Part shown: in pieces, positions 2,630 through 49,285 of the stretch
Numbering within the stretch: position 1 is the stretch's first letter
How the letters are laid out: every line of letters begins with the position of its first letter
From: Metellina segmentata
Lineage: Eukaryota > Arthropoda > Arachnida > Araneae > Tetragnathidae
Assembly (NCBI GenBank): GCA_947359465.1
Contig: OX375872.1
Location: 18,584,018 to 18,648,017, forward strand
Reading direction: 5' to 3'
DNA length: 64,000 nucleotides
The notes under the pieces: model-generated
The model's database searches: none
What the model was told of the DNA's origin: nothing
The model's input: the letters and a program-made list of their open reading frames with translations, nothing else
Position numbers and translations under genes: made by a program

Positions 2630-2769
2630 CCCTCTAAGTAGTTTCGACGAGATATATCTTCCATGACGATCTGACCATCTTTTCTAATGACGAGATATCT
2701 CGTCGTCCAAGATCTGATTAGTTTTGCTAATGATAAGATATATCGTCGAGATAATTACCTCAGGAGGTA
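2630..2769. mobile_element. Palindrome-array MITE copy 1 (piggyBac-like ends)
   Basis: TTAA at 2626-2629 precedes CCTCTAAGTAGTTTCGACGAG, a close match to the family start CCCTCCAAGTGGTTTCGACG. Inside are units with diverged GACGAGATATCTCGTC palindromes separated by 'ttttctaatgacgag' spacers. The right end, 'ttacctcaggaggtat', is a decayed version of the inverse terminus and its TTAA is not preserved. Non-coding. Confidence 0.65.
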
Positions 2770-9726: not shown

Positions 9727-10205
9727 CCATCCAAGTGTTTTCTACGAGATATCTCGATCATCCAAATCTTATTATTTTCGCTATTAACGAGACTCATCAT
9801 TAGACCGTGGTACAAAATTACGCGTTGTCGTCAGATTTTCCCTTCAGTTTGATCCCGGACCTTTCACCAGTAGCTCGCTATGTTGCTATAGTGCGACGTT
9901 AATTAAAATACTTACCTACTTATATATTGACAAGATATCTCGTCGTCACGACTTTGACGATTTTTTTATGATAACGAGATCAAGAACTCGTCCATCGAGA
10001 ACCGACCAATTTTTCTAATGACAAGATATCTCGTCCATCAAGATCCGACAAATTTTGCTAATGACGATATATCTCGTCACCACTGGCAATTGCTTGATTA
10101 TTACGAAACAAGATAGGGTCAGTATTATTTTAATGACGCGATAACTCGTTTGTTAACATATGTTAAGTTTTGCTTACGGCTCGATACATAGTCGAGGCAA
10201 GCTAC
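9727..10205. mobile_element. Palindrome-array MITE copy 2, carrying an inserted SINE fragment
   Basis: TTAA at 9723-9726 is followed by CCATCCAAGTGTTTTCTACG and the palindrome CGAGATATCTCGATC. Units continue on the far side of a SINE 3' fragment (9802-9921) as 'gacaagatatctcgtcgtc', 'gacaagatatctcgtccatc' and 'gacgatatatctcgtcacc'. The right terminus is decayed around 10165-10205 ('cgatacatagtcgaggcaag') and its exact end is uncertain. Confidence 0.7.
9802..9921 (+). mobile_element. SINE S1, 3' fragment
   Basis: Matches the 3' third of the S1 SINE: 'accgtgg.acaaaattac', 'gatcccggacc', then 'gtgcgacgttaattaaaata' and the CTTACCTACTT tail. It is 5'-truncated, as expected for target-primed insertion, and lies inside palindrome-array MITE copy 2, so it is younger than that MITE. 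Confidence 0.75.
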
Positions 10206-11149
10206 AGGAAATTTAAACCTCGTAATTTTAAATGTAAAGGGCTTAGGGGCAGCATAGTCATCAACCACATTTACATTTTTCAGACTGGCAATTTTCAAGT
10301 TTAAAAATAATTCAAAAATTATGTTTATCCGCTATTCAAGAGGCCGTGCTATTTTTAATTTTAAGGCTAACGCGCGTACTACTTTTTCAAAAATAAGAAA
10401 ATCTTCCGTTACTCTTGATTATTTCACTTTTATTTTTTCGCATTGTGGAATTTCTATTCTTGACTGATTCTTAAGTTGCCTGGTGCACATCATATATGCC
10501 CTTTTGTACTTTTTTTTTAATTAAAGTTTTCCCCTAAGACCACGAATTGAAAATGGTGTACATTTGTCTACAATTATCACATTGTTATTTCAAAAAGAAC
10601 TTCATTACATCGCAATTGTTTTGCTGATATGAATTTGGTTTCATGGATGCCTATATGTCAATACAGCGTCGGTCACATTCATTTCTTCGTTAGATCTCAA
10701 TTTTCTACGGCCCCTGATAGCACAGTAGATATGCGACATCTCTGGATTTCGTTTATCTTTTATTATGATCTCGCAGCAACGTGCCCATCAGAAATGAAAC
10801 ATCTTAGTTCGTACTAGAGATTGCTTCGGGAAAACATATTAAGAACATCTGTAGAAGGTCTTCCGTTTTGGTACAATATTCATACCATAAATATCTACAA
10901 GAGTGCAATATGGTCAACGCTCATGACCAAAGTCGAATCTAACAAATAACAAGGTAGATAGATCAAGTAATGCGAGGAATCTGATGAATTCCTACTCATA
11001 AACCCATGAACTTTAGGAAAGTAATATACGCCATAATAACATGTATTTGTGTGAAACCGGTTATTAACTCTTGCAGGGGTTCACACGCATCATAATTTCA
11101 CCTAGCAACATGCATTCTTTTTTTCGTTTAGTATCTATATGACTCTTCT
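10206..11149. other. AT-rich interval without recognised features
   Basis: I see no gene or repeat structure. The 62-residue frame at 10629-10817 has no recognisable motif. Confidence 0.4.
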
Positions 11150-11875
11150 AGCCGTTTTTAATATTCTCTTGATCAATAAAATATTTCCAAGGGGTTCTGT
11201 TTCGTGGAAAGGACTATTAAAATCTTGTCAAACGATACTGTTCTCCGAAATTGACCAATAAATATTTCAAATAGATTCTATTTTGAAAACAGAACTAATA
11301 ACATCTTGCCAAACGATTTTATTCTAAGAAACTGTACAATAGTCTTACAAAAAGATTTTATTTTTGGGAACGAAATAATAAACCCTTGCTAACGATTTTA
11401 TTCTAATAAAACGGCCAATAAAATATTCCCGACGGATTATGTATTAAAGAAATAATTAATGAACTCTTGCCAAACTATTTTATTCTAAGTAAACGACCAA
11501 CAAAATCTTTCCAACTGCGTCTATTTTGAGGAAAGTACTAATACAATCTTGTCAAACTATTCTATTCTAAAATAAACGGCTAATAAAATATTTCCAAAGG
11601 ATTCTATTTTGAGAACAGAACTAATATCTTGCCAAACGATTTTATTCTAAGAAACCGGTCAATTAAATCTTACAAAGGGATTTTATTCTGAGGAACTAAA
11701 TTATAAACTCTAGCCAAACTATCGTATTCTAAGAAAACGGCCTATAAAATATTTTCAAAGGATTATGTTGAGGAATAGATTAAAAGAATATTTCCAAACG
11801 ATTGTTTTTTAAGGAAATGGTCGACAGAATCTTTCCAAACGAGACTACTGTAAGGAAATGATCAATGGAATCTTA
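11150..11875. repeat. Minisatellite B, block 2
   Basis: A run of ~45-60 bp units of the form 'gccaaacgattttattctaagaaa' alternating with 'caataaaatctttccaaaggatt'. The core reads AATCTTTCCAAAGGATTCTATT, nearly its own reverse complement. The array stops at the left end of the Tc1-like element at 11876. Confidence 0.7.
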
Positions 11876-16462: not shown

Positions 16463-16656
16463 CCCTCCCGTTGGTTTTCTCGACAAGGTATCTCGTCATT
16501 AGTAAAACTTACTAGATCTTGATGGTCTAGATAACTCGTTATTAGGAAAAACTGATCAAATCTTGATCTCACAATTTTAATGACGATGTACATCGTCATA
16601 AGAAAAATTCGTCCGATCTTGATGGACGAGATATCTCGTCAAAACCACTTGGAGTG
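16463..16656. mobile_element. Palindrome-array MITE copy 3
   Basis: Starts CCCTCCCGTTGG after TAAA (a mutated TTAA) and ends 'gacgagatatctcgtcaaaa' plus CCACTTGGAGTG before an intact TTAA at 16657-16660. Internal units keep the 'atcttgatgg' spacer in the orientation opposite to the left end. One of the clearer copies with both inverted ends present. Confidence 0.8.
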
Positions 16657-17439: not shown

Positions 17440-18205
17440 AAAATAGCTAACAGGTAATAGTTAACTGTAGAAAAGAATAGTTAGCAAAAGAAAAAATAGT
17501 TTACAGTAGAAAAGAATAGTTAGCTATAAAAAATAGTTTACAGTAGAAAATAATAGTTAACTGTAGAAAACATAGTTAATAGTAGAAATAATAGTTAAAC
17601 ATTTAGAACAGTTAATAGTCAATTGTTAACAGTAGAAAATAATATTATTGACAGTTAGAACAACAGAAAGTAGAAAAGAATAGTATTAACAGTTAGAACA
17701 GCTAACAGTAGAAAAGAATAGTATTAACTGTTAGAACACCTAACAGTAGAAAATAATAGTAAATTAGTAGAACAGTTAGTATTGAACAGTTAAAAGTAGA
17801 GAAAATAGTTAATTAGTAGAATAGTTAGTAGTTAATAGTTAAAAGTAGAGAAAATAGTTAATTAATAGAACAGTTAATAGTTAAAAGTAAGAAAAAGGTA
17901 ATTAGTTGAACAATTAGTTGCTAATAGTTAAAAGTAAGAAAATGTTAATTAGTTAAACAATTAGTTGCTAATAGTTAAAAGTAAGAAAATGTTAATTAGT
18001 TAAACAATTAGTTGCTAATAGTTAAAAGTAGAAAAATAGTTAACAGTAGAAAATAATAGTTAACAGTATAAAATAATAGTTAACAGTAGAAACTAATAGT
18101 TAGCAGTAGGAAATAATAGTTCACAGTACAAACGAATAGTTAATAGTAGGAAATAATAGTTCACAATTCATAGTTAAAAGTAGAAAATAATAGTTAACAG
18201 TTAAT
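17440..18205. repeat. Minisatellite, ~20-45 bp units around AGTTAACAGTAGAAAATAAT
   Basis: Dozens of diverged units combine 'atagttaacagtagaaaa' with variants such as 'ttaattagttaaacaattag' and 'ttgctaatagttaaaagta'. Three near-identical ~56-bp units lie at 17890-18030, indicating recent local expansion inside an older array. Non-coding. Confidence 0.85.
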
Positions 18206-18288
18206 GAAAAGATCAACAGAAGTTACAGATTAACATGCAGTGTTCAAAAATATCCTTTATAAAACTCTTTTGCTCTTAAAGTTCATGG

Positions 18289-18507
18289 GATGCACGTTAA
18301 ACCTCTCGTCGCCTTAAATGTCTTCACATTGGCGTCGTGTGGAAGTTTGGAGAGTGGTGTGCGAGTTCAAGTGTGACCTCTGGTCATCTGACCGTGGATC
18401 AAAATTATGTGTTGTCCTCGAATCTTTCCCTTCGGAATTGATCCCGAACCGTTGTAATAACCATTTCCTGCTCGAAAGTGACGTTAATCAAAATAACTAC
18501 CTACCAA
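18289..18507 (+). mobile_element. SINE S1, 5'-truncated
   Basis: Begins in the body ('tgcacgttaaacctctcgtc'), runs through 'gtgtggaagtttggagagtgg', 'gtcatctgaccgtgg.tcaaa', 'tttcccttcggaattgatcc' and ends 'gacgttaatcaaaat' plus a CTACCTACC tail. The tRNA-like head is missing. Confidence 0.8.
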
Positions 18508-18954
18508 ATAAAGGTCTTGTTTGTCTCAAGACGAGATAGAAATGATTTAACGTGTAATTTGTTTTATTGGAGACCCAAGGTGTTGTTTCCCTTGAGATTC
18601 ACGGTTTCTTTTAAACATAGGATTCGCACTCCCGGGTTACACAAGCGATTGTTTTCTGCTCTCATCGCCTCACCCTATTCCCTAATCCGTCTATTCACCT
18701 CGTTCACGACTTTTTTTTTACTTCCAATTGTTTTGTGTTTGGAGCAGCTTGACCAAACATGGTCTTTGCGCCATAAAACCCGAAAGGAAGTAACCAATCT
18801 TCTGCATTGGAGGTAACTAACTGTTTTGATGAAATTTTGTGACTTACAATCCATTCTTCCTATTACTTTTCTTTTAATATTGAATTTCATATACTCTGTA
18901 GACGACGTTGTGATATCAATCAAAATTCACTGAACTCGTGTGTGCAGGTTTAAT

Positions 18955-19680
18955 GCAATGTAACAAAGATGCGATAAAGACGTAATGTATTCTAATAAAG
19001 ATGTGATGACGTAAAGTAATGTAATAAAAATGTGATAAAAACGATATGTAATGTAAGAAAGGCGTGGAAAAAATGAACTGTAATGAAATAAAGATATGAA
19101 AAAATACACATCATGTAATGTAATAAAGATGTGATAAAGACGAATTTGTGATGTATTGAATAAAGATGTGATAAAGACGAATTTGTGATGTATTGAATAA
19201 AGATGTGATAAAGAGGAATTTGTAAGTATTGTAATAAAGATGCGGAATAAAGACATTATATAATGTATTCTAATCTAATGTAATGAAATAAAGACATAAT
19301 GCAATGAAATAAAGACGTAATGTAATGTAAAAAAGACGTAATGTAATATACTAAAAACTTAATATAAAATAATGATAAAATACAGATGTAATGTAATAGA
19401 GACGTATTAAAATGTAATGTAATAGAGAGTATTAAATGTAATGTAATAGAGACGTATTAAAATGTAATGTAATAGAGAGTATTAAATGTAATGTAATAGA
19501 GACGTATTAAAATGTAATGTAATAGAGAGTATTAAATGTAATGTAATAGAGACGTATTAAAATGTAATGTAATAAAGACGTAATATAATGCAATATAGGC
19601 GTGATAAAGACGTAATTTAATAAATAACGTAAAATTGTTAAAAGCGTAATGCATCGCATATAATATCACATTAAAATAGG
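18955..19680. repeat. Minisatellite of TGTAATGTAATAAAGACG type with a higher-order ~49-bp unit
   Basis: The basic unit is 'taatgtaataaagacg' with variants 'tgtgataaagacgaatttg'. Between 19383 and 19565 a composite unit, 'atgtaatagagacgtattaa' followed by 'aatgtaatgtaatagagag', repeats four times almost perfectly, so the centre expanded recently. Two exact 37-bp units near 19120-19200 show the same process. The 109-residue minus-strand frame across it is a repeat artefact. Confidence 0.85.
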
Positions 19681-21024: not shown

Positions 21025-21227
21025 TTCTACAAGTGGTTTCAACGAGATATGGCGACCATTAGTGCTAATTACAAGATCTCATCATATTGCCGAATTTTAT
21101 TAAATTAAAATTATATAAAATCTGGCGTTTTTCTTCCAATGAAAAGAAACGACATCGTTATGAACCATCCAGAACCTGTCAGTTTTGATTATGATCAGCT
21201 ACCTCGTCGGGACAACTGTTAGGAGGG
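21025..21227. mobile_element. Palindrome-array MITE copy 4, decayed
   Basis: TTAA at 21021-21024 precedes TTCTACAAGTGGTTTCAACG. The right end 'gacaactgttaggaggg' resembles the inverse family terminus, but the flanking TTAA is lost. Internal palindromes are badly eroded, suggesting one of the older copies. Confidence 0.6.
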
Positions 21228-21472: not shown

Positions 21473-22345
21473 CCCTCCATGTGGTTTCGACGAGATATCT
21501 CGTCATCAAAAGATTGGCGATTTTTCATGACGAAGGTATCACGATCTGGTCAGTTTGTTTCTAATGGCGAGAAACCGTGTCCATCAAGATCTAACCAATT
21601 TTGCTGATAGCAAAACATCTCGCTATCAAGATACTGACATTTTAATGTCAATTCTCTTATAATGAGATATCGCAGTTATCAAAATCAGGGTAGTATTTTT
21701 CTGATAACGAGATATGTCATTCATCAACATCTGTTCAGATTTGCTTACGACCAGATACATCGTACAGGTCAACAGTACTACTCACTGTTACTTATCTAGT
21801 GTACATAGTTGCTGACTAGATAACTCGTCATCAATATATTGCTGATTTTTGTATGATGAGATGGTTTTAGTGTATGATAACTAGAGCAAGGGTCAGTTTT
21901 ATGATGACTATATATCTCGTCCAATTTGAAGATAAAGATATCGGAAATTTAGCATCTCTCACTGGAAAAAGTCTAATGAGAAATACAAACCCTCCAAGTA
22001 GTTTCACCGAGATATATCGTCCATCAAAATCTGACCAACTTTTACTGACGACATCTATCGTCACCAAGAAATCGCAGATTTATTGAATATATCAAGATAA
22101 AGATATAGTAAGTTTTCTTCTAATAACGAGATATCTCGTCCATCAAAATGTGGCCAGTTGTGCTAAGTACGAGGTATCTCTTCGAGATAACCACCAACGG
22201 GGTAACAATATAATATTTAAAGTCAATTCCGATTTTTTTTATGATTACGGGATCAAGATCTAAACAGTGTTTAATACTGACGAGAAACGACGAGATGTTG
22301 AGGGAGATATATCTCGTCTGTCTTGATTTAGTAGGGGAGGACAAT
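21473..22345. mobile_element. Cluster of palindrome-array MITE copies 5-6
   Basis: TTAA at 21469-21472 begins copy 5 with CCCTCCATGTGGTTTCGACG and the exact palindrome GACGAGATATCTCGTC. A second start, CCCTCCAAGTAGTTTCACCG, lies at 21990, and its partner end 'gataaccaccaacgggg' closes at 22202. More units (21790-21985, 22203-22345) sit between and after them without clear termini, e.g. 'ggagatatatctcgtctgtc'. The cluster is either nested insertion or array expansion across element borders. Confidence 0.7.
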
Positions 22346-24910: not shown

Positions 24911-25054
24911 TTAACGTCGCATTGGAGTAACACAGCCGGTTATTAGCGACGGTTAAGGATTAAACCCGAAGGATAAGATCTGAGGACAATACCCCGTAAT
25001 TTTGAACCACGGTCATATGACGAGGTCACACCTGAATCCGAGGTCACACCTGAG

Positions 25055-28000
25055 GATTCTCTCCAAGGATCGTAATATAGACATTATAAATACCTACCAC
25101 CCTCCCAATAATTTAGGACTTCCGACGGATATGATTGAAGGTTTTCTTGGAGACAACACACTTGTTCTCGGAGACCTAAATGCAAAACATGCTGAGTGGG
25201 GATCCCCTACCACTAACAATAGAGGGACTGAGCTTGTAAATTTGGCAAATGACAAAGCTTTTCTTTTTCTAAATGATGGATGCCATACCTATCACTCGCA
25301 TAGTTATAATTCGACTGACGCTCTAGATATCTCTATGATCAGTCCCGGCTTGTTTCCTTATTCATCATGGAGAGTTCTAGCCGAGGTGGGAAGTGACCAC
25401 CTTCCAATACTTATAGAAATCGACTTTAAAGTGAACTACCATGGAGATAGTAGGCTCCGCTGGAACTTTCGTAGAGCCGATTGGTCTTTATTTGAAAAAT
25501 TGTCAGAGGAGATGTTCGCTCAGAGCTCTCCATCAGAGGACCTGGAGAGAGAATGGTCTGGCCTTCAGTTCATAATGAAAAAAGTCGCAAAGGCCTCCAT
25601 TCCTCGTGGAAAGTGTAAAGGGAAGAAGCGTTTATTTATTCACGCGAGCGACCCCGTCCAATCGCTCATCCAAAGGAGATCGGAACTTCATGGGGAGGTA
25701 GCTCTGAGTTCTCGTATGGACAAAAAGATTGAACTAAACAAATTAAATGCTGAAATCAAAAGACGCTATGTTGAGATAAAGCGTACTAACTGGCAGGACA
25801 CATGTAGAAACTTAGACCACAGAACCCCAGATTCAAGGCTGTGGAAATTGACAAAATGTCTTGATAAAATGCCGGTCAATAATGAAGATACCAACACTAT
25901 CGTTGGGGATGACGGTTCAACTGCTGTAAACGACCAAGAGGCAGCCGAGACTTTGGCCAAGCATTATGCTAAGGCGAGCAGAGTGACTTTCAGTAGATCG
26001 GACAAAAGGCTGTCCAGAATTACAAGAAACCTAGTGAAATCCTGCCGAGATTTGAGGACAGAGAACCCTTTATTTGATGATGATTTCACAGCAGATGAAC
26101 TATCTTACGCTCTTCAACACCAAAATCTGACCAAGTCACCAGGTCCGGATGGAATTCATGGTCAATTCCTAAGCCATCTGGGTTTTCTAGGCAAAAGTAG
26201 GCTGCTTCATCTCTTCAATTTGTCTTGGTCAACTGGGAAACTTCCAAGGCAATGGAAATCGGCCATAGTCATCCCCATTCGTAAACCCAACAAGAAAGCC
26301 AGTTCTGTTGACAGTTACCGTCCAATCTCTCTCACCTGTATTATATGTAAAATTATAGAAAGGATAATTTTGAGAAGATTGACACACCACCTTTTGTCAA
26401 ATAACTTGATTCCACCAGAGCAATATGCGTTTAGAAGAGGCCATAGCACAATGGACCAGATTCTGTTCTTCAGTCAAAGTGTTAGAGATGCCCAAAATTG
26501 CAAACCCACAAAACATACTTTGGCGGTTTTTCTAGATCTATCTAAGGCATTTGACAGGGTTTGGAAGTATAAATTACTTAACAAGTGTTACAATGACTTT
26601 AAAATCAAAGGTAGAGCTCTCCCATGGATCTCAAACTTTCTAAATCACAGAAATTTTTGCGTAAACTTTCAAAATAAGCAATCAGGATTTTACAGGTTGT
26701 ATCAGGGAATCCCTCAGGGTTCCGTACTCAGTCCTACCCTGTTTTCCATGTTTATTGCAGGAATTGAAAAAATTGTATCACCATGCCAGATTGGCATCTT
26801 TGCAGATGACATTGTGTTGTGGTCTAGTGGTTCAGACATAGGAAAACTGGAATCTAATCTAAACGGATCCTTAGAAGCTGTCCGTGATTTCTCAAACTCT
26901 CACAGGTTAAACTTCAATCCCTCAAAATCAGTTAGTAGCTTCTTCACCACTAATAGACACCTCTACAATTATTCTCCTGCAGTGTACTTTTCTAATCAGT
27001 TACTGGACTGTGACAAATATCCAATTTACTTGGGTTTTACATTGGATCCTGAGATAAACTGTAGGAAACATATAGAGAAAATAGCAGATAAAGCTAGAAA
27101 GCGTCTACAGATTTTGAAGTATATTTCAGGTAGAGACTGGGGAGCTGATGCTTCCACTCTCAGACTTACTTTTTGTTCCCTCGTGCGTCCCATTCTTGAG
27201 TATGGTTACCAGGTATTTCAAACGGCTTCTGCTTCTAACTTAAAGATCTTGGACAGAGTACAATTGAGTGCAGCAAGAATAATCACTGGGTTAAGGAATA
27301 GCTGCCCCAGTGAAGTGGTCCTATACGAAGCTGACATTTTACCTCTGACTACGAGATATAGGATTGGTTCTTTTAAATATTTTAATAAATTGTCAAGTCT
27401 TGGTGATTTTAACAGGACTGCTGAATTCACTTTGAAGTGGAGGAGTAATCAGCGTTTAAAGAGAGACACCCCGATGGAATTTGTGAGGAAGGAGGGTTTT
27501 ATTGATTTTGAGGTTATTCCTTCGACCACTTTTAACTGCTTGCCTCCGACGGTGTCCCTTGAGAATGTCAGTTTTAATGATGAACTGAAGACTCATGCCA
27601 ATAAACAGACGGATCACCCAGACCTTTTGAAACAGTTGGCCCTGGAGGTTGTCAATAGCATCCCTTCTGATGCATTGGTCATCTATACGGACGGTAGCAA
27701 ACTTGAAGACGGTAGAACCGGGAGTGGTGTTTTCATCAACAGCGCTGAGGACAAGGTCAAATGCAGCATCCGAAACCCTGACCATTGTTCAGTCTTTAGA
27801 TCGGAGATCATAGCAATTGGTGCAGCCCTTAATTATGCACAGTCCACTGATAAAAATTGTATTTGGATTTTGACTGATAGTAGGAGTGCTATACAGTATT
27901 TCAAAAATTGGCCACAAATTTTTGACATCCCAGACCAGGATATTCTGAAGCTTCTCTGCGAGATTGGCCTGAAAACACCAATAAGCCTCCAATGGATTCC

Positions 28001-28468
28001 ATCGCATATCGGGGTGTATGGAAACGAGACAGCCGATGTACTCGCCAAGAATGGCTGTGATCTCCCTATGGACTGTTTGAATCGCCTCACTCCCACTGAG
28101 GTCCACTCCCTGGGAAAACAACGTTTGCTTTCCTTGTGGCGCCGTACGCCATCCCACCATTGGTATGCTGGCAATCACCCTGGACTCTCAATCACATGCT
28201 GTGGCCCTCGGCCTTTTCAATCGGCCATGGCCAGATTTCGAAGTGGCCATCTTAAAAGTATCAAATTTCAGAACGGGGAGAGAATTTTCCCTCCTTGTTC
28301 CTGTTCCCTACCTGCCAGTCCTGATCACCTTCTTCTCTGTCTTGGCGCTTCATATAAGCAGCTGTTGGTTGATCAGGACTTTTTGCAGGTATATGGGGAT
28401 CTGGCACGACGGGGCCTTCTGGACCTGGTGTAGGCTTTCCTACACCAGGGGGATGTGCAACAACAACA
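25055..28468 (+). mobile_element. LINE retrotransposon with RNase H, 5'-truncated, CAA-tailed
   Basis: Flanked by the 9-bp direct repeat ACACCTGAG (25046-25054 and 28469-28477), which is SINE sequence and therefore the target duplication. The 3' end is a short (CAA)n tail at 28458-28470. The 5' end falls inside the endonuclease domain, a typical incomplete reverse transcription. The single long frame is essentially free of stops, so insertion is comparatively recent. EN plus RT plus RNase H in one ORF points to the I/R1/LOA side of the LINE tree; the exact clade needs a phylogeny. Confidence 0.9.
25056..28433 (+). CDS. LINE ORF2-type polyprotein: endonuclease (partial), reverse transcriptase, RNase H
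   Basis: Residue numbers count from 25002, where the frame first opens inside antisense SINE sequence with a TTG, so the native start is missing. Residues ~25-140 are the C-terminal half of an APE-type endonuclease (GDLNAKHAEWG at 57-67, SDHLPILIEI at 131-140). RT follows at roughly 360-650: SPGPDGIHG, SYRPISLTCIICKIIER, LDLSKAFDRVW, GIPQGSVLSPTLFS and the FADD box near 599-602. RNase H is at ~890-1015 with the acidic set YTDGSK, FRSEIIAIGA, LTDSRSAI and the IPSHIGVYGNETAD loop. The C-terminus has a CSCSLPASPDHLLLC cysteine/histidine motif. The protein would copy its own RNA at a nicked target. All RT and RNase H catalytic Asp/Glu residues are present, but without the N-terminal endonuclease half it cannot be autonomous. 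Confidence 0.92.
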   Translation: MLSKDRNIDIINTYHPPNNLGLPTDMIEGFLGDNTLVLGDLNAKHAEWGSPTTNNRGTELVNLANDKAFLFLNDGCHTYHSHSYNSTDALDISMISPGLFPYSSWRVLAEVGSDHLPILIEIDFKVNYHGDSRLRWNFRRADWSLFEKLSEEMFAQSSPSEDLEREWSGLQFIMKKVAKASIPRGKCKGKKRLFIHASDPVQSLIQRRSELHGEVALSSRMDKKIELNKLNAEIKRRYVEIKRTNWQDTCRNLDHRTPDSRLWKLTKCLDKMPVNNEDTNTIVGDDGSTAVNDQEAAETLAKHYAKASRVTFSRSDKRLSRITRNLVKSCRDLRTENPLFDDDFTADELSYALQHQNLTKSPGPDGIHGQFLSHLGFLGKSRLLHLFNLSWSTGKLPRQWKSAIVIPIRKPNKKASSVDSYRPISLTCIICKIIERIILRRLTHHLLSNNLIPPEQYAFRRGHSTMDQILFFSQSVRDAQNCKPTKHTLAVFLDLSKAFDRVWKYKLLNKCYNDFKIKGRALPWISNFLNHRNFCVNFQNKQSGFYRLYQGIPQGSVLSPTLFSMFIAGIEKIVSPCQIGIFADDIVLWSSGSDIGKLESNLNGSLEAVRDFSNSHRLNFNPSKSVSSFFTTNRHLYNYSPAVYFSNQLLDCDKYPIYLGFTLDPEINCRKHIEKIADKARKRLQILKYISGRDWGADASTLRLTFCSLVRPILEYGYQVFQTASASNLKILDRVQLSAARIITGLRNSCPSEVVLYEADILPLTTRYRIGSFKYFNKLSSLGDFNRTAEFTLKWRSNQRLKRDTPMEFVRKEGFIDFEVIPSTTFNCLPPTVSLENVSFNDELKTHANKQTDHPDLLKQLALEVVNSIPSDALVIYTDGSKLEDGRTGSGVFINSAEDKVKCSIRNPDHCSVFRSEIIAIGAALNYAQSTDKNCIWILTDSRSAIQYFKNWPQIFDIPDQDILKLLCEIGLKTPISLQWIPSHIGVYGNETADVLAKNGCDLPMDCLNRLTPTEVHSLGKQRLLSLWRRTPSHHWYAGNHPGLSITCCGPRPFQSAMARFRSGHLKSIKFQNGERIFPPCSCSLPASPDHLLLCLGASYKQLLVDQDFLQVYGDLARRGLLDLV

Positions 28469-30695: not shown

Positions 30696-31993
30696 TGACG
30701 GATGAAGTAGACTTGTCTGAGACTGTTTCTTTATTTCAACAGATATATACTGTAGCAATCAACTATATTTAACATATAACGATGAAAAGTCAATGCAACG
30801 CAATTCTTAATGTTGCTATTGTAACGATGTATTCAAGCAGAAAGTGATGTTGGATGATAGTCAATTATATAAGCCTTAATCCTAAGTCTGTTTTAGTAAG
30901 TTCAAAGTGTAGTATATTTTTCTGGGAACTCCTTTTGTCAAATATATTAACGTGGAAAGCTCTCAACTGCACGATATATCAGATGGTGAAATAAAAATTT
31001 AACAGTATCTTTATCTATTCTGATAGTTTATCTTCGTGTCTGTTGAAGAGTGCCCTGTGGTGTCCCGTATTTGATTCAGAAACTGGTTCGAAAGTGTCAC
31101 CAGTTCTAGGCGAGAGAACATTTGTTTTTCCTACTGAGATATCATTTCCTTGGAATAAAAGGACAGATTTTTCTCGACTCGGTAGCACTATAGAAAGATA
31201 ATTATATTTTTATGTTTTTAGATTAGAAAATATTTGAAGGATTAAAAAGCAGAGATGGCATATTGGTTCACTTCCATGAACTTGCTAACGTATAAAAATT
31301 CTTACCTTTTCGTTGTTCTGTAATTAATGTTTTACGAATGTGTACTTGGAGAAATGTAATTTTAGACAACATAAAAACAGTGGTACATTCAAAAGGCAAT
31401 TTAGCCCTGTGTTCGTATTATTATATAGGAATAAAGCCGATAGCTATTCTAAGCTTTCTCTTCATAGGTTGATACAAATTGGAAAAGAAAGACTTTCTAG
31501 AAAAAATGTGCGTGGTGGTATATCTTTGCGTCGAAAACCACCTTGTAGTGGCCAGCTTGTGATACAGAAACCTGTTCCTAACTGTCCCCAATTCTAGGCA
31601 AGGCATAACTTGGTTTCTTGCATCTTCTTGGCTACTTGAATCTTCATTCCGCTAGGAATAACAGGACAGATTTGTCTCGACGTAGTATAACAACATTAGC
31701 AGAACTTAAAAGATTTCAATGAGCGAGGGTTCCCTAACCCCCATTTCCAAAATTGACCATGCAGAACCTTGAACAACGCCACCATTTGAACGGGCTTGCT
31801 GGTAAGAAATTGCGAACTACAGTTTCACTTTCACCTCTTAAACCGTTCCGATTAGTTACTTATAGTTTCAGTTCCGCATTTGTATATAACGGTTACTTCT
31901 TTGTATTCCTAGTAGTATGCTTTGTGTTCTCTAACGGTGTAGCATGTATGTGCTGTGATGTTCGTAAAATAAAAACCTTTTGATTACGTAAGC
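30696..31993. other. Non-coding interval
   Basis: No recognised genes. Two similar segments, 'cctgtggtgtcccgtatttg' near 31049 and 'ccttgtagtggccagcttgt' near 31541, each followed by 'gaaac(t)ggttc', 'ccagttctaggc' and 'aataa.aggacagatttgtctcgac', are diverged copies of one ~490-bp-spaced repeat. Frames at 31340-31597 and 31753-31983 lack motifs. Confidence 0.4.
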
Positions 31994-32040
31994 TTCAACC
32001 AGATATCGGGCGAGATATCTCGTCGAAATCTCGTGGAGGG
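31994..32040. mobile_element. Palindrome-array MITE copy 7, right-end fragment
   Basis: 'ggcgagatatctcgtcgaaa' followed by TCTCGTGGAGGG and TTAA (32041-32044) is the family right terminus with its target site. No left terminus is recognisable upstream. Confidence 0.7.
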
Positions 32041-33443: not shown

Positions 33444-33516
33444 TAGATTCAACCTATAATTTTCTTACTCATCTTACTCAAACAATTAATGACTAAATGA
33501 AATATTTATTCATTAA

Positions 33517-33609
33517 CCTCCTGATAGTTGTATCCATGAAATATCTCTTCATTAGTATAATTGGTCAGATTTTGATTTGCGAGGTATCTCGTCGCAACCA
33601 CTTGGAGGA
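33517..33609. mobile_element. Palindrome-array MITE copy 8, minimal copy with TTAA on both sides
   Basis: TTAA (33513-33516), then CCTCCTGATAGTTG at the left end and 'gaggtatctcgtcgcaac' plus CACTTGGAGGA at the right, then TTAA (33610-33613). Only 93 bp, about two palindrome units. It shows that the family can exist as a short TTAA-bounded element, which separates the mobile unit from mere satellite DNA. Confidence 0.8.
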
Positions 33610-34147
33610 TTAAGAGAATAATTTCATTAACAGCGTGTGATTAAATAACCAATATCATATAGCAGGATGCATTCAATTTAAGTGTTAACAAGGTTGTTAA
33701 GTATGGAAGCACATTAATTATATTTAAGGCACTTACTTCTTTGAAGTTAAATGGAAAGTAGGATTTCAAGATGATGAATGGAGTAGCTCATCTGCTGTTG
33801 TACCTTTGGAGCTTTATTTCCTATCAAGATAAAATTTTTATTAATTTTCGGAGTCACAAATAAAAAGTAGAATTATTTAACAAAAAGTTCAAGCACCGCT
33901 CAAAAGTACATAGGATAATAGTGAAATAGGTTTTTGATATTTAATTTTTGGTAGATGTTGTAGTTTAAACTATTGTTAAAATCATTCACTAGAAAAATAC
34001 TAAACTTTTTATTCCGATTTGGAATTATATAAATCTTTCATATTTACATTTCCTATTATGAAGTAACTTAAACGAAATCTTGTAAGGATATCTCCAGTTC
34101 TTTATCAAAATCGCAGTTTCCTAAAGGTGATGCGTCTGATCAATTAA

Positions 34148-34325
34148 TTTTATTAATAATGAGATACCTCGTGAATAAGATATTACTGTTTTTTTATGAT
34201 GACAAGATGATTTTCTTATCAGGTTTTTTGAGACGAGATATCTCGCGTCTCGGTTGGTGACGAAATATCTCGTCTATCAAGATGTGGTCAATTTTTCTAA
34301 TGACGAGAGACGACCACCAGAAGGG
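34148..34325. mobile_element. Palindrome-array MITE copy 9
   Basis: TTAA at 34144-34147 on the left; units 'gacgagatatctcgcgtctc' and 'gacgaaatatctcgtctatc' inside; right terminus 'acgaccaccagaaggg' followed by TTAG, a one-base-altered target. It belongs to the subgroup ending ACCACCAG rather than ACCACTTGG. Confidence 0.65.
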
Positions 34326-40849: not shown

Positions 40850-40977
40850 AAGATTAATCGGATCTAGGATATCATAAAGAACGCGATCTACTATCTCTCA
40901 CTTATGAAGTATCTCATCAAAAGCACAATTGATCATATTTTGATAGACAAGATATCTCGTCGAAACACTTTGAAGGG
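40850..40977. mobile_element. Palindrome-array MITE copy 10
   Basis: Right terminus 'gacaagatatctcgtcgaaa' plus CACTTTGAAGGG, followed by TTAG. At least one more degraded unit ('gaagtatctcatc') lies inside. The left end is not clear. Confidence 0.6.
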
Positions 40978-41221
40978 TTAGTCGGAAAGAATAAAAAAAA
41001 ATGAATGCAATTGCTAAATGTACTTATTGTACCGATTGTAACCTTGTAACGAATTCAATATTCACGTCAAATCTAGCGAACTAATGCAACTTCATGTTCC
41101 CTTAAACTGAATTTTCCTGCTACATGCAGGGGACTTGCAGACTAACATTTGAATTGAACTTTAATGAATAAATTCTTATTGTGCGAGGGTTCCTTCATGG
41201 CCACCTTCAGACCATCTTTAA

Positions 41222-41768
41222 CTTCTTCAAGTGGATTAGACGAGATATCTCGCCCATCAAGATTTGACCGACTTTATTCATCAAGATATATATCTAGTCA
41301 ACCACATAATACCGATGATTGTTTATGAGATCATGATCTGGACAGTTTTTCGAATGACGAGATATCTCGCCCATCAAGACCTGACCAATTTCACTAATTA
41401 CGAGATATCTCGTCATCAATACATTAACGATTTGTTTTAGGATTGCAAAATCCGCATATGATCAGTTTTTTTCTAATGATCAGATATCTCGTACATCAAT
41501 ATCTGAACAATTTTTCTAATGATGAAATATCTCGTCATCGAAGTAATACCGATGTTTTACGATGACGAGATCAAGACCAGGTAATTTTTCTTGTGATGAC
41601 GAGATATCTCGTCCATCAAGATCTCGTTAGTTTTTTTTCTAAAGACCCGATATCTTGTCAAGAGATTCTTACAATGACGAGATTAAGATTTGGTCATTTT
41701 TTGTAATGACGAGATGTCCATCAAGATCTGCTCAAGATTTACTAATGACGAGTTAACCACCAGGAAGA
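41222..41768. mobile_element. Palindrome-array MITE copy 11, longest array
   Basis: TTAA flanks at 41218-41221 and 41769-41772 enclose 547 bp. The left end CTTCTTCAAGTGGATTAGACG and the right end 'gttaaccaccaggaag' are the two terminus types. Palindrome-type sites start near 41239, 41285, 41356, 41399, 41479, 41521, 41598 and 41644. Spacing alternates between 42-46 and 71-80 bases, so the true unit is a ~117-122 bp dimer. The longer spacer holds a half-palindrome, 'gatgacgagatcaaga', and 'ctggtcagttttt'; the shorter holds 'catcaagatctgaccaattt'. No coding capacity. Confidence 0.85.
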
Positions 41769-41772
41769 TTAA

Positions 41773-41927
41773 TATTCCTTTATTTGAACGAGGTGCAAAA
41801 AAAATGACCAGATCTCGATCTCGTTATAAGAAAAAAATGACAATATCTTGATGAGGAGATAAATCATCAAACACAAAATTATTCATGTCTTGATAGACGA
41901 CTTATCTCGTCGAAACCACTTGAAAGT
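41773..41927. mobile_element. Palindrome-array MITE copy 12, adjacent to copy 11
   Basis: Begins at the TTAA that closes copy 11 and ends 'gacgacttatctcgtcgaaa' plus CCACTTGAAAG before TTAA at 41928-41931. Internal 'tgaccagatctcgatctcg' and 'tcttgatgaggagataaatc' are decayed units. The left terminus is not recognisable, so whether it is a separate insertion or the tail of a larger composite is open. Confidence 0.55.
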
Positions 41928-41931
41928 TTAA

Positions 41932-44535: not shown

Positions 44536-45320
44536 CTATTGCTTCTCTCCTTGCAATATAATCATTTGGAAAGATTTTGTGAGATTATATTGCTCGTTTC
44601 TTAGAATAGAATCCCATAAAGATTTTATTGCTATATATTTTATAATAGAATCCCTTGAAAATATTATGTTATTACTCATTTCCTAGAATATAATCCTTCG
44701 AAAAGATTCTGTATTTTTTTTTCTTTATTATAGAATCATTTAGAAAGATTATATTGCTCATTTGCTTAGAATGCATTCGTTTGGATAATGTTTTCTCCTC
44801 TCCAAGGGATTCTATTACTAGAATTGCTCCTCTCCTTGCAATATAATCATTTGGAAAGATTTTGTGAGATTATATTGCTCGTTTCTTAGAATAGAATCCC
44901 ATAAAGATTTTATTGCTATATATTTATAATAGAATCCCTTGAAAATATTATGTTATTACTCATTTCTTAGAATATAATCCTTCGAAAAGATTCTGTATTT
45001 TTTTCTTTATTATAGAATCATTTAGAAAGATTATATTGCTCATTTGCTTAGAATGCATTCGTTTGGAAAATTTTTTCTCCTCTTCAAGGGATTCTATTAC
45101 TAGAATAGAATTTATATTCTATGAAAGAAAAATCGAAATATTCTATTCTAAAATAGAATTCCCTATTATTGAAATATATTGTTTTTCATTCTTTCCCTTG
45201 CAATAGAATCACTTGAAACTTTATCTTACTATTTTCCTTACAATTGAACTCTTGTAAAGATTCCATTACTCATTTCTTTACAATAGAATCGCTTGATAAC
45301 ATTCTGTTGCTCCTTTTCAC
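44536..45320. repeat. Minisatellite B, block with a 284-bp near-exact duplication
   Basis: Units of ~38-47 bp such as 'ttagaatagaatcc.ataaag' and 'attttattgct' fill the block. The segment starting at 44541 ('ctctccttgcaatataatc', 'atttggaaagattttgtgag') recurs at 44825 almost unchanged to about 45100, so seven units were duplicated together in a recent event. Later units include 'ttgcaatagaatcacttgaa' and 'ttacaatagaatcgcttga'. Confidence 0.85.
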
Positions 45321-47100: not shown

Positions 47101-47212
47101 TAATCCATGGATTTTTCAACCTTAAGAAATATTCCATTGGACTTGAAGAGTGTGTTGAGGACAAAAAGCAACACCCCACTAGTCGGAAAAATCGCTAAGC
47201 CTAGAGGGTTAA

Positions 47213-49245: not shown

Positions 49246-49249
49246 TTAA

Positions 49250-49285
49250 CCCTCCCAGTGGTTTATTTTTTCGTCGAAAATCGCC
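49250..49285. mobile_element. Palindrome-array MITE, left-end fragment
   Basis: TTAA (49246-49249) plus CCCTCCCAGTGGTTTATT and 'tttcgtcgaaaatcg'. Only the terminus is recognisable. Confidence 0.5.

Follow-up and report, generated by a model that had tools for sequence, protein, structure and literature searches.

A TTAA-bounded, piggyBac-type MITE in a spider genome with ~43-bp palindromic units spaced like the modules of the piggyBat left end

The left end of the transposon piggyBat carries a palindrome, P1LE (bp 19–30), that is held by a dimer of the transposase CRD, and it has G motifs beginning at bp 11, 55, and 99, which gives a module step of 44 bp; the right end is described, in the accessible part of that account, as having no palindrome (PMC11707139). 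In the piggyBat complex, according to the available portion of a preprint, the left end is bent around bp 25 and bp 69, at the CRD sites (PMC13405395). piggyBat is itself held back by a surplus third site. Members of the piggyBac superfamily are recognized, by the rule given in the available text of PMC2872659, by CC[C/T] termini and a TIR of 12–19 bp.

Elements with internal repeats that become satellites have been described in other superfamilies, as summarized here from the accessible sections of the papers cited. Xmix and Xstir, Xenopus T2-MITEs of the Kolobok superfamily, are TTAA MITEs whose internal segment became a satellite (PMC6004289, PMC12628747). The Tc1/mariner MITE miDNA4 of X. 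tropicalis holds one to many satellite monomers (PMC12628747, PMC9659126), and its long arrays are thought to lose their ends (PMC12628747). The internal tandem repeats of Galileo are regarded as extra transposase-binding sites, and the same has been proposed for Tetris, in which satellite arrays reach 66 copies of the repeat (PMC4079207).

The window analyzed here is a stretch of 64,000 nucleotides (C12:18584018–18648017) of the 1.665-Gb Metellina segmentata assembly, with 35% GC and remnants of non-LTR and Tc1-type elements. Fourteen elements (E1–E14), recognized by their related ends, lie between 2.6 and 47.4 kb. About fifteen sites between 2.6 and 49.3 kb had been expected from the original prediction; the elements bear this out up to E14, but the last site, at 49250–49280 on the plus strand, reads TTAA (from 49246) followed by CCCTCCCAGTGGTTT, matches the first ~16 bp only, and has no palindrome. 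This terminus (49246–49280) is perhaps the end of a related element, or even that of the missing autonomous partner. Of the ends in the window, 11 of type L and 9 of type R came from a profile search, and one further R end (E6) from a separate search. The elements comprise six L–R pairs from the profiles, E6, E12 (recognized by eye), and six one-ended remnants.

The paired copies differ in the preservation of their flanks. End profiles (nhmmer for E1) and reading of the flanks place E1 at 2630–2768 (plus strand, 139 bp; TTAA 2626–2629 at L, ATAA beyond R), E2 at 9727–10212 (plus, 486 bp; exact TTAA on each side), E3 at 16463–16656 (minus, 194 bp; TTAA 16657–16660 at L, decayed TAAA at R), and E4 at 21025–21227 (plus, 203 bp; TTAA at L, ATAC at R). 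The interior of E2 seems, by eye, to be interrupted by another repeat at about 9805–9905. E6 (21990–22202, plus, 213 bp) runs from L to R between decayed flanks, CAAA and TAAC. E8 (33517–33609, minus) is the smallest paired copy of the window, 93 bp with a single palindrome module per end, and E11 (41222–41768, plus, 547 bp) contains seven in-register palindromes and partial units. Both had been predicted to have TTAA on either side, and do so, at 33513–33516 and 33610–33613 (E8) and at 41218–41221 and 41769–41772 (E11). E12 (41773–41927, minus) has its L end at 41927 with TTAA at 41928–41931, and a decayed R end, seen by eye, abuts 41773.

Among the one-ended remnants, L ends were found in E5 (21473 to approximately 21950, plus; TTAA 21469–21472, decayed units, R end unrecognized), E7 (31989–32040, minus; TTAA 32041–32044), and E10 (40922–40977, minus; adjoining CTAA). 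The last two came from the end search with flanks read, and their remainders were unrecognized. The R ends belong to E9 (approximately 34161 to 34325, plus; adjoining CTAA, with units to the left of R), E13 (42745 to approximately 43060, minus; TTAA 42741–42744, decayed units), and E14 (47213 to approximately 47430, minus; TTAA 47209–47212, about five palindrome units), the L end being unrecognized in all of them. A CCC-type terminus, CCCTCTAGGCTTAGCG, lies on the minus strand at 47150–47212 and faces E14 across one common TTAA.

The window also contains features distinct from these elements. A 1143-aa open frame at 25002–28433, from a jockey-like retrotransposon, covers endonuclease, RT, and RNase H; among the best 120 of 331 matches, the best named relatives of this long RT are from Cordylochernes (a pseudoscorpion), Araneus, Trichonephila, and Argiope, the Argiope match being 71% identical across 30% of the query. 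Tandem repeats distinct from the MITE lie at 11174–11874 (~41/82 bp) and 44538–45106 (282 bp), and by eye these two seem to have AT-rich motifs around AAGATTTTATT in common. Several different short tandem arrays are clustered within about 2 kb at 17456–19602.

The original prediction described a minisatellite of a 16-bp palindrome. The repeat proved to be a head-to-tail unit of ~43 bp, with one 16-bp palindrome and a 27-bp spacer per unit, arranged in a higher-order triple of ~120 bp. The window and 54 fetched loci (L001–L054) together supplied the 60 L and 47 R ends on which the end consensuses are based. The L end reads TTAA-CCCTCCAAGTGGTTTC, followed by GACGAGATATCTCGTC, CATCAAGATCTGACCAATTTTGCTAAT, and the palindrome; the R end, read inward, is TTAA-CCCTCCTGGTGGTTGTCTC, followed by GACGAGGTATCTCGTC, ATTAGCAAAACTGACCAGATCTTGATG, and the palindrome. 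The two ends differ and form imperfect inverted repeats, CCCTCC terminating both (TIR comparison: CCCTCCAAGTGGTTTC at L against CCCTCCTGGTGGTTGTC at R). The matching ends first proposed were thus not recovered: the end at 41768 is of R type and holds no copy of CCACTTGGAGGG, and neither CCCTCCAAGTGG nor CCACTTGGAGGG ends occur exactly in the window, where 3 and 2, respectively, are found with one mismatch.

Inward of L, the first consensus unit measures 43 bp, the next about 44 bp, and the third, which contains half a palindrome, about 34 bp. Palindromes are centered at 24.5 and 67.5 in the L consensus and at 27.5 and 70.5 in the R consensus. Units in the window copies are oriented from L to R on reading, and among the listed unit clusters two loci, L030 and L053, have matches on both strands. 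The window copies are decayed, because only 4 palindromes are exact compared with 24 having two mismatches or fewer.

The family is abundant. Base composition predicts 0.18 exact palindromes in 1.665 Gb, where 23,054 are present, and an L-end 32-mer chosen without TTAA has 421 exact genomic copies; the reversed control gave 0 in each case. As not one of the 11 window L ends matches the 32-mer exactly, the family as a whole should far exceed 421 copies. TTAA directly precedes 231 of the 421 exact 32-mers (55%), compared with a background of 1.09% in the fetched DNA. The end profiles, which were seeded by the window ends, were likewise built without TTAA, and exact TTAA adjoins 33 of the 60 profile ends of type L and 22 of the 47 of type R in the window and L001–L054 (25/49 L and 18/38 R outside the window). 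Where TTAA is not exact, 22 of 27 L and 21 of 25 R ends are one or two bases off. Copies agree at 0.72–0.87 inside TTAA and at a mean of 0.38 across 20 outer columns. For these counts, profile matches were dropped if they started after model base 5 or ended before base 30, as was the weaker of overlapping L and R matches.

Pairing of nearest ends within 40–1200 bp gave 32 L–R pairs, two of which (L052, 51 bp, and L034) look false. Lengths fall at 94–389 bp in 27 pairs and at 486–930 bp in 4, with 28 below 400 bp. Exact TTAA stands on both sides in 7 of the 32 pairs by profile, to which 33517–33609 and 41222–41768 are added by eye.

These properties agree with the superfamily and type originally proposed. 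The CCCTCC ends carry a CC[C/T] terminus and a TIR, TTAA lies at both edges, and the element is short, non-coding, and present in high copy number with variable internal repeat number, TTAA being the putative TSD. The element is, judged by these sequence features, a piggyBac-type MITE. With 22 of the 116 scored transposase loci sampled, this filing is based on ends and target. Other superfamilies also target TTAA, among them Kolobok (T2/Xmix type), in which Xmix and Xstir have the design of a MITE with a satellite, but Kolobok ends are RR (AG..., and AGGRR in T2; PMC6004289, accessible part), while both ends here begin CCCTCC. Membership in Kolobok or the T2-MITEs was rejected on these termini, and we give such an origin almost no credence.

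We infer transposition because of the high copy number, the sharp edges, and TTAA. E11 and E12 appear to have one TTAA, 41769–41772, in common (the R end of E12 being assigned by eye), and in L043 neighboring elements have one common 4-bp edge, reading TGAG. Together with the CCC end facing E14, such common edges are as expected for new copies using a resident TTAA. The search for empty sites that had been suggested as a check found none: 18 joined-flank constructs compared with the genome yielded no spanning match among the 40 scored of 393 candidates. This set, 18 of 19 prepared constructs in a query of 2631 bases of which 3 were stray from the nineteenth, left out the copy at 41223, whose right flank is E12. 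Local searches of the fetched loci gave no convincing empty site, one of them yielding a loose pairing (L016 on L010). The pairing of L043 on L029 was rejected, as the spanning match was MITE sequence itself. No MITE was seen inside retrotransposon frames among 30 of the 120 proteins returned. At two loci on C1 (L036, 81942034, and L037, 81979045), copies 37 kb apart have an identical 20-base left flank, which probably reflects a duplicated segment with the MITE in it. To the right of position 2394 in L024, a repeat with at least 22 matches at 90–94% starts 4 bp beyond the R end, as seen at the joined-flank junction.

The family is old, because copies agree with the consensus at only roughly 0.7–0.8 per site on average. 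Selective conservation of the palindrome was looked for by site agreement and none was seen, the second palindrome agreeing at 0.72 and the spacer at 0.76; neutral decay of dead copies would likewise leave the palindrome no better kept than the spacer. Within the second palindrome, CpG sites look only slightly more decayed than the other sites (agreement 0.67 vs. 0.74).

Transposases of the piggyBac type (DDE_Tnp_1_7) are present in the genome, with at least 116 scored among 3831 candidates and many open frames. A transposase with CCCTCCAAGTGG ends had been suggested as a further check; none with MITE ends was found in the 22 piggyBac loci fetched of the 116 scored (best profile E about 1), and in many of these 22 loci the transposon's own ends were unrecognized. 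Comparison of the window and L001–L054 with eight of these transposases gave no transposase remnant by hmmsearch, the best tblastn match having an E value of 0.26 (L030). The autonomous partner is perhaps extinct or unsampled.

One pair of sister transposons in this genome has a left end comparable to that of the MITE. L058 (C5:70985218 onward, from position 519 of the fetched locus) and L066 (C12:15128868 onward, from position 469) have open frames of 600 and 573 aa and are 97.9% identical from TTAA up to where the fetched stretch stops, which leaves the right boundary unfixed. The best PDB match of the L058 transposase is piggyBat, at 206 bits compared with 137 bits for T. ni piggyBac. Their left-end palindromes are centered at 24.5 and 69.5, 45 bp apart. 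When 20,000 stretches were drawn at random from the fetched loci, MITEs among them, 23 showed such a pair; of 180 TTAAC sites scanned across the 22 loci, 3 had it, namely the L058 and L066 left ends and one AT-rich site in L075. Among six left ends inspected (L057, L058, L062, L065, L067, and L068), the pair is found at these positions in L058 only, L065 having a weaker, AT-rich palindrome at another position. Right-end candidates of L058 and L066 showed no palindrome with 7 or more of 8 pairs. The L058-type transposon may be young, because several further genome matches have 600-aa open frames with scores similar to that of L058.

The MITE palindromes thus occupy a familiar geometry: centers at 24.5 and 67.5 compare with P1LE at bp 19–30, the 44-bp period, and the bends near bp 25 and 69 of piggyBat. 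Because these positions match both piggyBat and L058, the satellite monomer is probably a binding module for a transposase dimer. Consistent with this, the 93-bp copy E8 retains just one module per end. Several observations speak against it: the second palindrome is kept no better than its spacer; both MITE ends are palindromic, unlike the right end of piggyBat and the right-end candidates of L058/L066; the palindrome sequence of the MITE differs from that of L058; and of the six left ends inspected, L058 alone has the pair. A piggyBac-type MITE might instead have captured, or grown, an incidental satellite whose palindrome plays no role in transposition. A palindrome kept no better than its spacer and a freely varying unit number would suit such an origin, and miDNA4 offers a precedent of a MITE said, in the available text of PMC12628747, to have captured a tandem repeat. 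The terminal palindromes, however, take fixed places in the L and R consensuses, are present at each end of the 93-bp copy, and coincide with the positions of the CRD sites in piggyBat and of the palindromes in L058. We therefore consider an incidental satellite unlikely, if still deserving of attention, and prefer the dimer-binding module.

Runs of six or more units occur in 4 of the 54 loci (L015, L023, L029, and L030). In the largest array (L015 94–4501 and L063 1–546; C1:8509093–8514046), a 45-bp unit is repeated about 100 times (9.6 + 80.6 + 12.1 by TRF), neighbors matching at 76–80%, and a retrotransposon fragment interrupts the series. One edge, from C1:8509030, has an R end and TTAA; no L end was seen at the far edge. 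That long arrays exist at all might suggest an older satellite of ~43/45 bp that later gained mobile TTAA/CCC ends. Such arrays are rare in the fetched DNA, however, and 19 of the 24 loci fetched solely for an exact palindrome (L001–L024) contain a MITE end within the stretch. The option raised at the outset, that the MITE spreads satellite seeds, is favored over the reverse route because the C1:8509030 array keeps its R end and TTAA and its unit resembles, by eye, the R-proximal unit of the MITE. A satellite-first history is accordingly very improbable.

Taken as a whole, the evidence is best explained, with reasonable though not strong confidence, by a piggyBac-type MITE built of piggyBat-like dimer-binding modules, a few copies of which have become satellite-like. 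The 22 sampled piggyBac loci (of 116 scored) that lack the MITE ends and the 18 copies for which no empty site was found weigh against it. The element would be laid out as TTAA, L, n head-to-tail units, R, and TTAA, each unit offering a palindrome to a pair of C-terminal zinc domains (CRDs), with a recurrence of ~43 bp that resembles piggyBat. A piggyBat-like transposase, now unseen, would spread the elements into TTAA by cut-and-paste, slippage or unequal exchange would lengthen or shorten the series of modules, and some few copies would expand into satellite-like arrays, one of them without an end. The ends, TTAA, copy number, unit structure, variable unit number, the ~100-unit array, and the agreement in position with piggyBat and L058 are observed; we infer the CRD binding, the transposase partner, and the slippage. 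It is interesting to speculate that the pool of modules acts as a transposase sink, in which surplus sites soak up or misdirect transposase, help to silence the autonomous partner, and leave palindromic satellites behind, although we rate this as rather improbable. If the modular reading is true, it supplies a concrete molecular cause for a tandem MITE interior, the monomer being the transposase's own grip and its period being set by the packing of transposase dimers.

In open-access papers, none of the matches listed contained the palindrome sequence (ACGAGATATCTCGT or GAGATATCTCGTC), no paper brought together piggyBac, MITE, minisatellite, and TTAA, and no spider-titled paper on piggyBac MITE genomics stood among the matches listed. 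One 28-place pattern had no match in viral contigs. The comparisons that follow draw on the accessible parts of the published descriptions. The piggyBat left end of Myotis lucifugus resembles the MITE in its TTAA, in a palindrome per module of ~44 bp, and in several sites in a row; this likeness is one of positions. It differs in being that of an autonomous, mammalian element with three modules at one end only, while the MITE has palindromes at both. L058/L066 have TTAA and left palindromes at 24.5 and 69.5, against 24.5 and 67.5 in the L end of the MITE, but their terminus (CCTTTAGAGTACGGGT) and the sequence of their palindromes are different. Two modules are visible on their left end, and the right boundary is unfixed; their likeness to the MITE is one of geometry. 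Xmix and Xstir have the TTAA target and an internal segment that turned into a tandem repeat and satellite, but AGGRR ends and membership in the Kolobok superfamily, and no palindromic monomer serving as a binding site is mentioned for them there. In miDNA4, as in the MITE, satellite monomers lie inside the element, but the superfamily differs. The CMITE of Acropora is, like the MITE, piggyBac-type, with TTAA, CC[C/T]T ends, and a conserved interior, but whole CMITE elements rather than internal modules form its tandem arrays (PMC2872659). Tetris and Galileo share the internal tandem repeats and the binding-site idea but are foldback elements with an 8–9 bp TSD, the 220-bp repeats of Tetris lying in long TIRs (PMC4079207). 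The binding-site idea was thus proposed earlier for foldback elements (Tetris, after Galileo), and the piggyBat complex adds a structural yardstick to it. Satellite-seeding MITEs are already known in Xstir, miDNA4, and Tetris; what is new here is a piggyBac version in which the monomer is probably a binding site.
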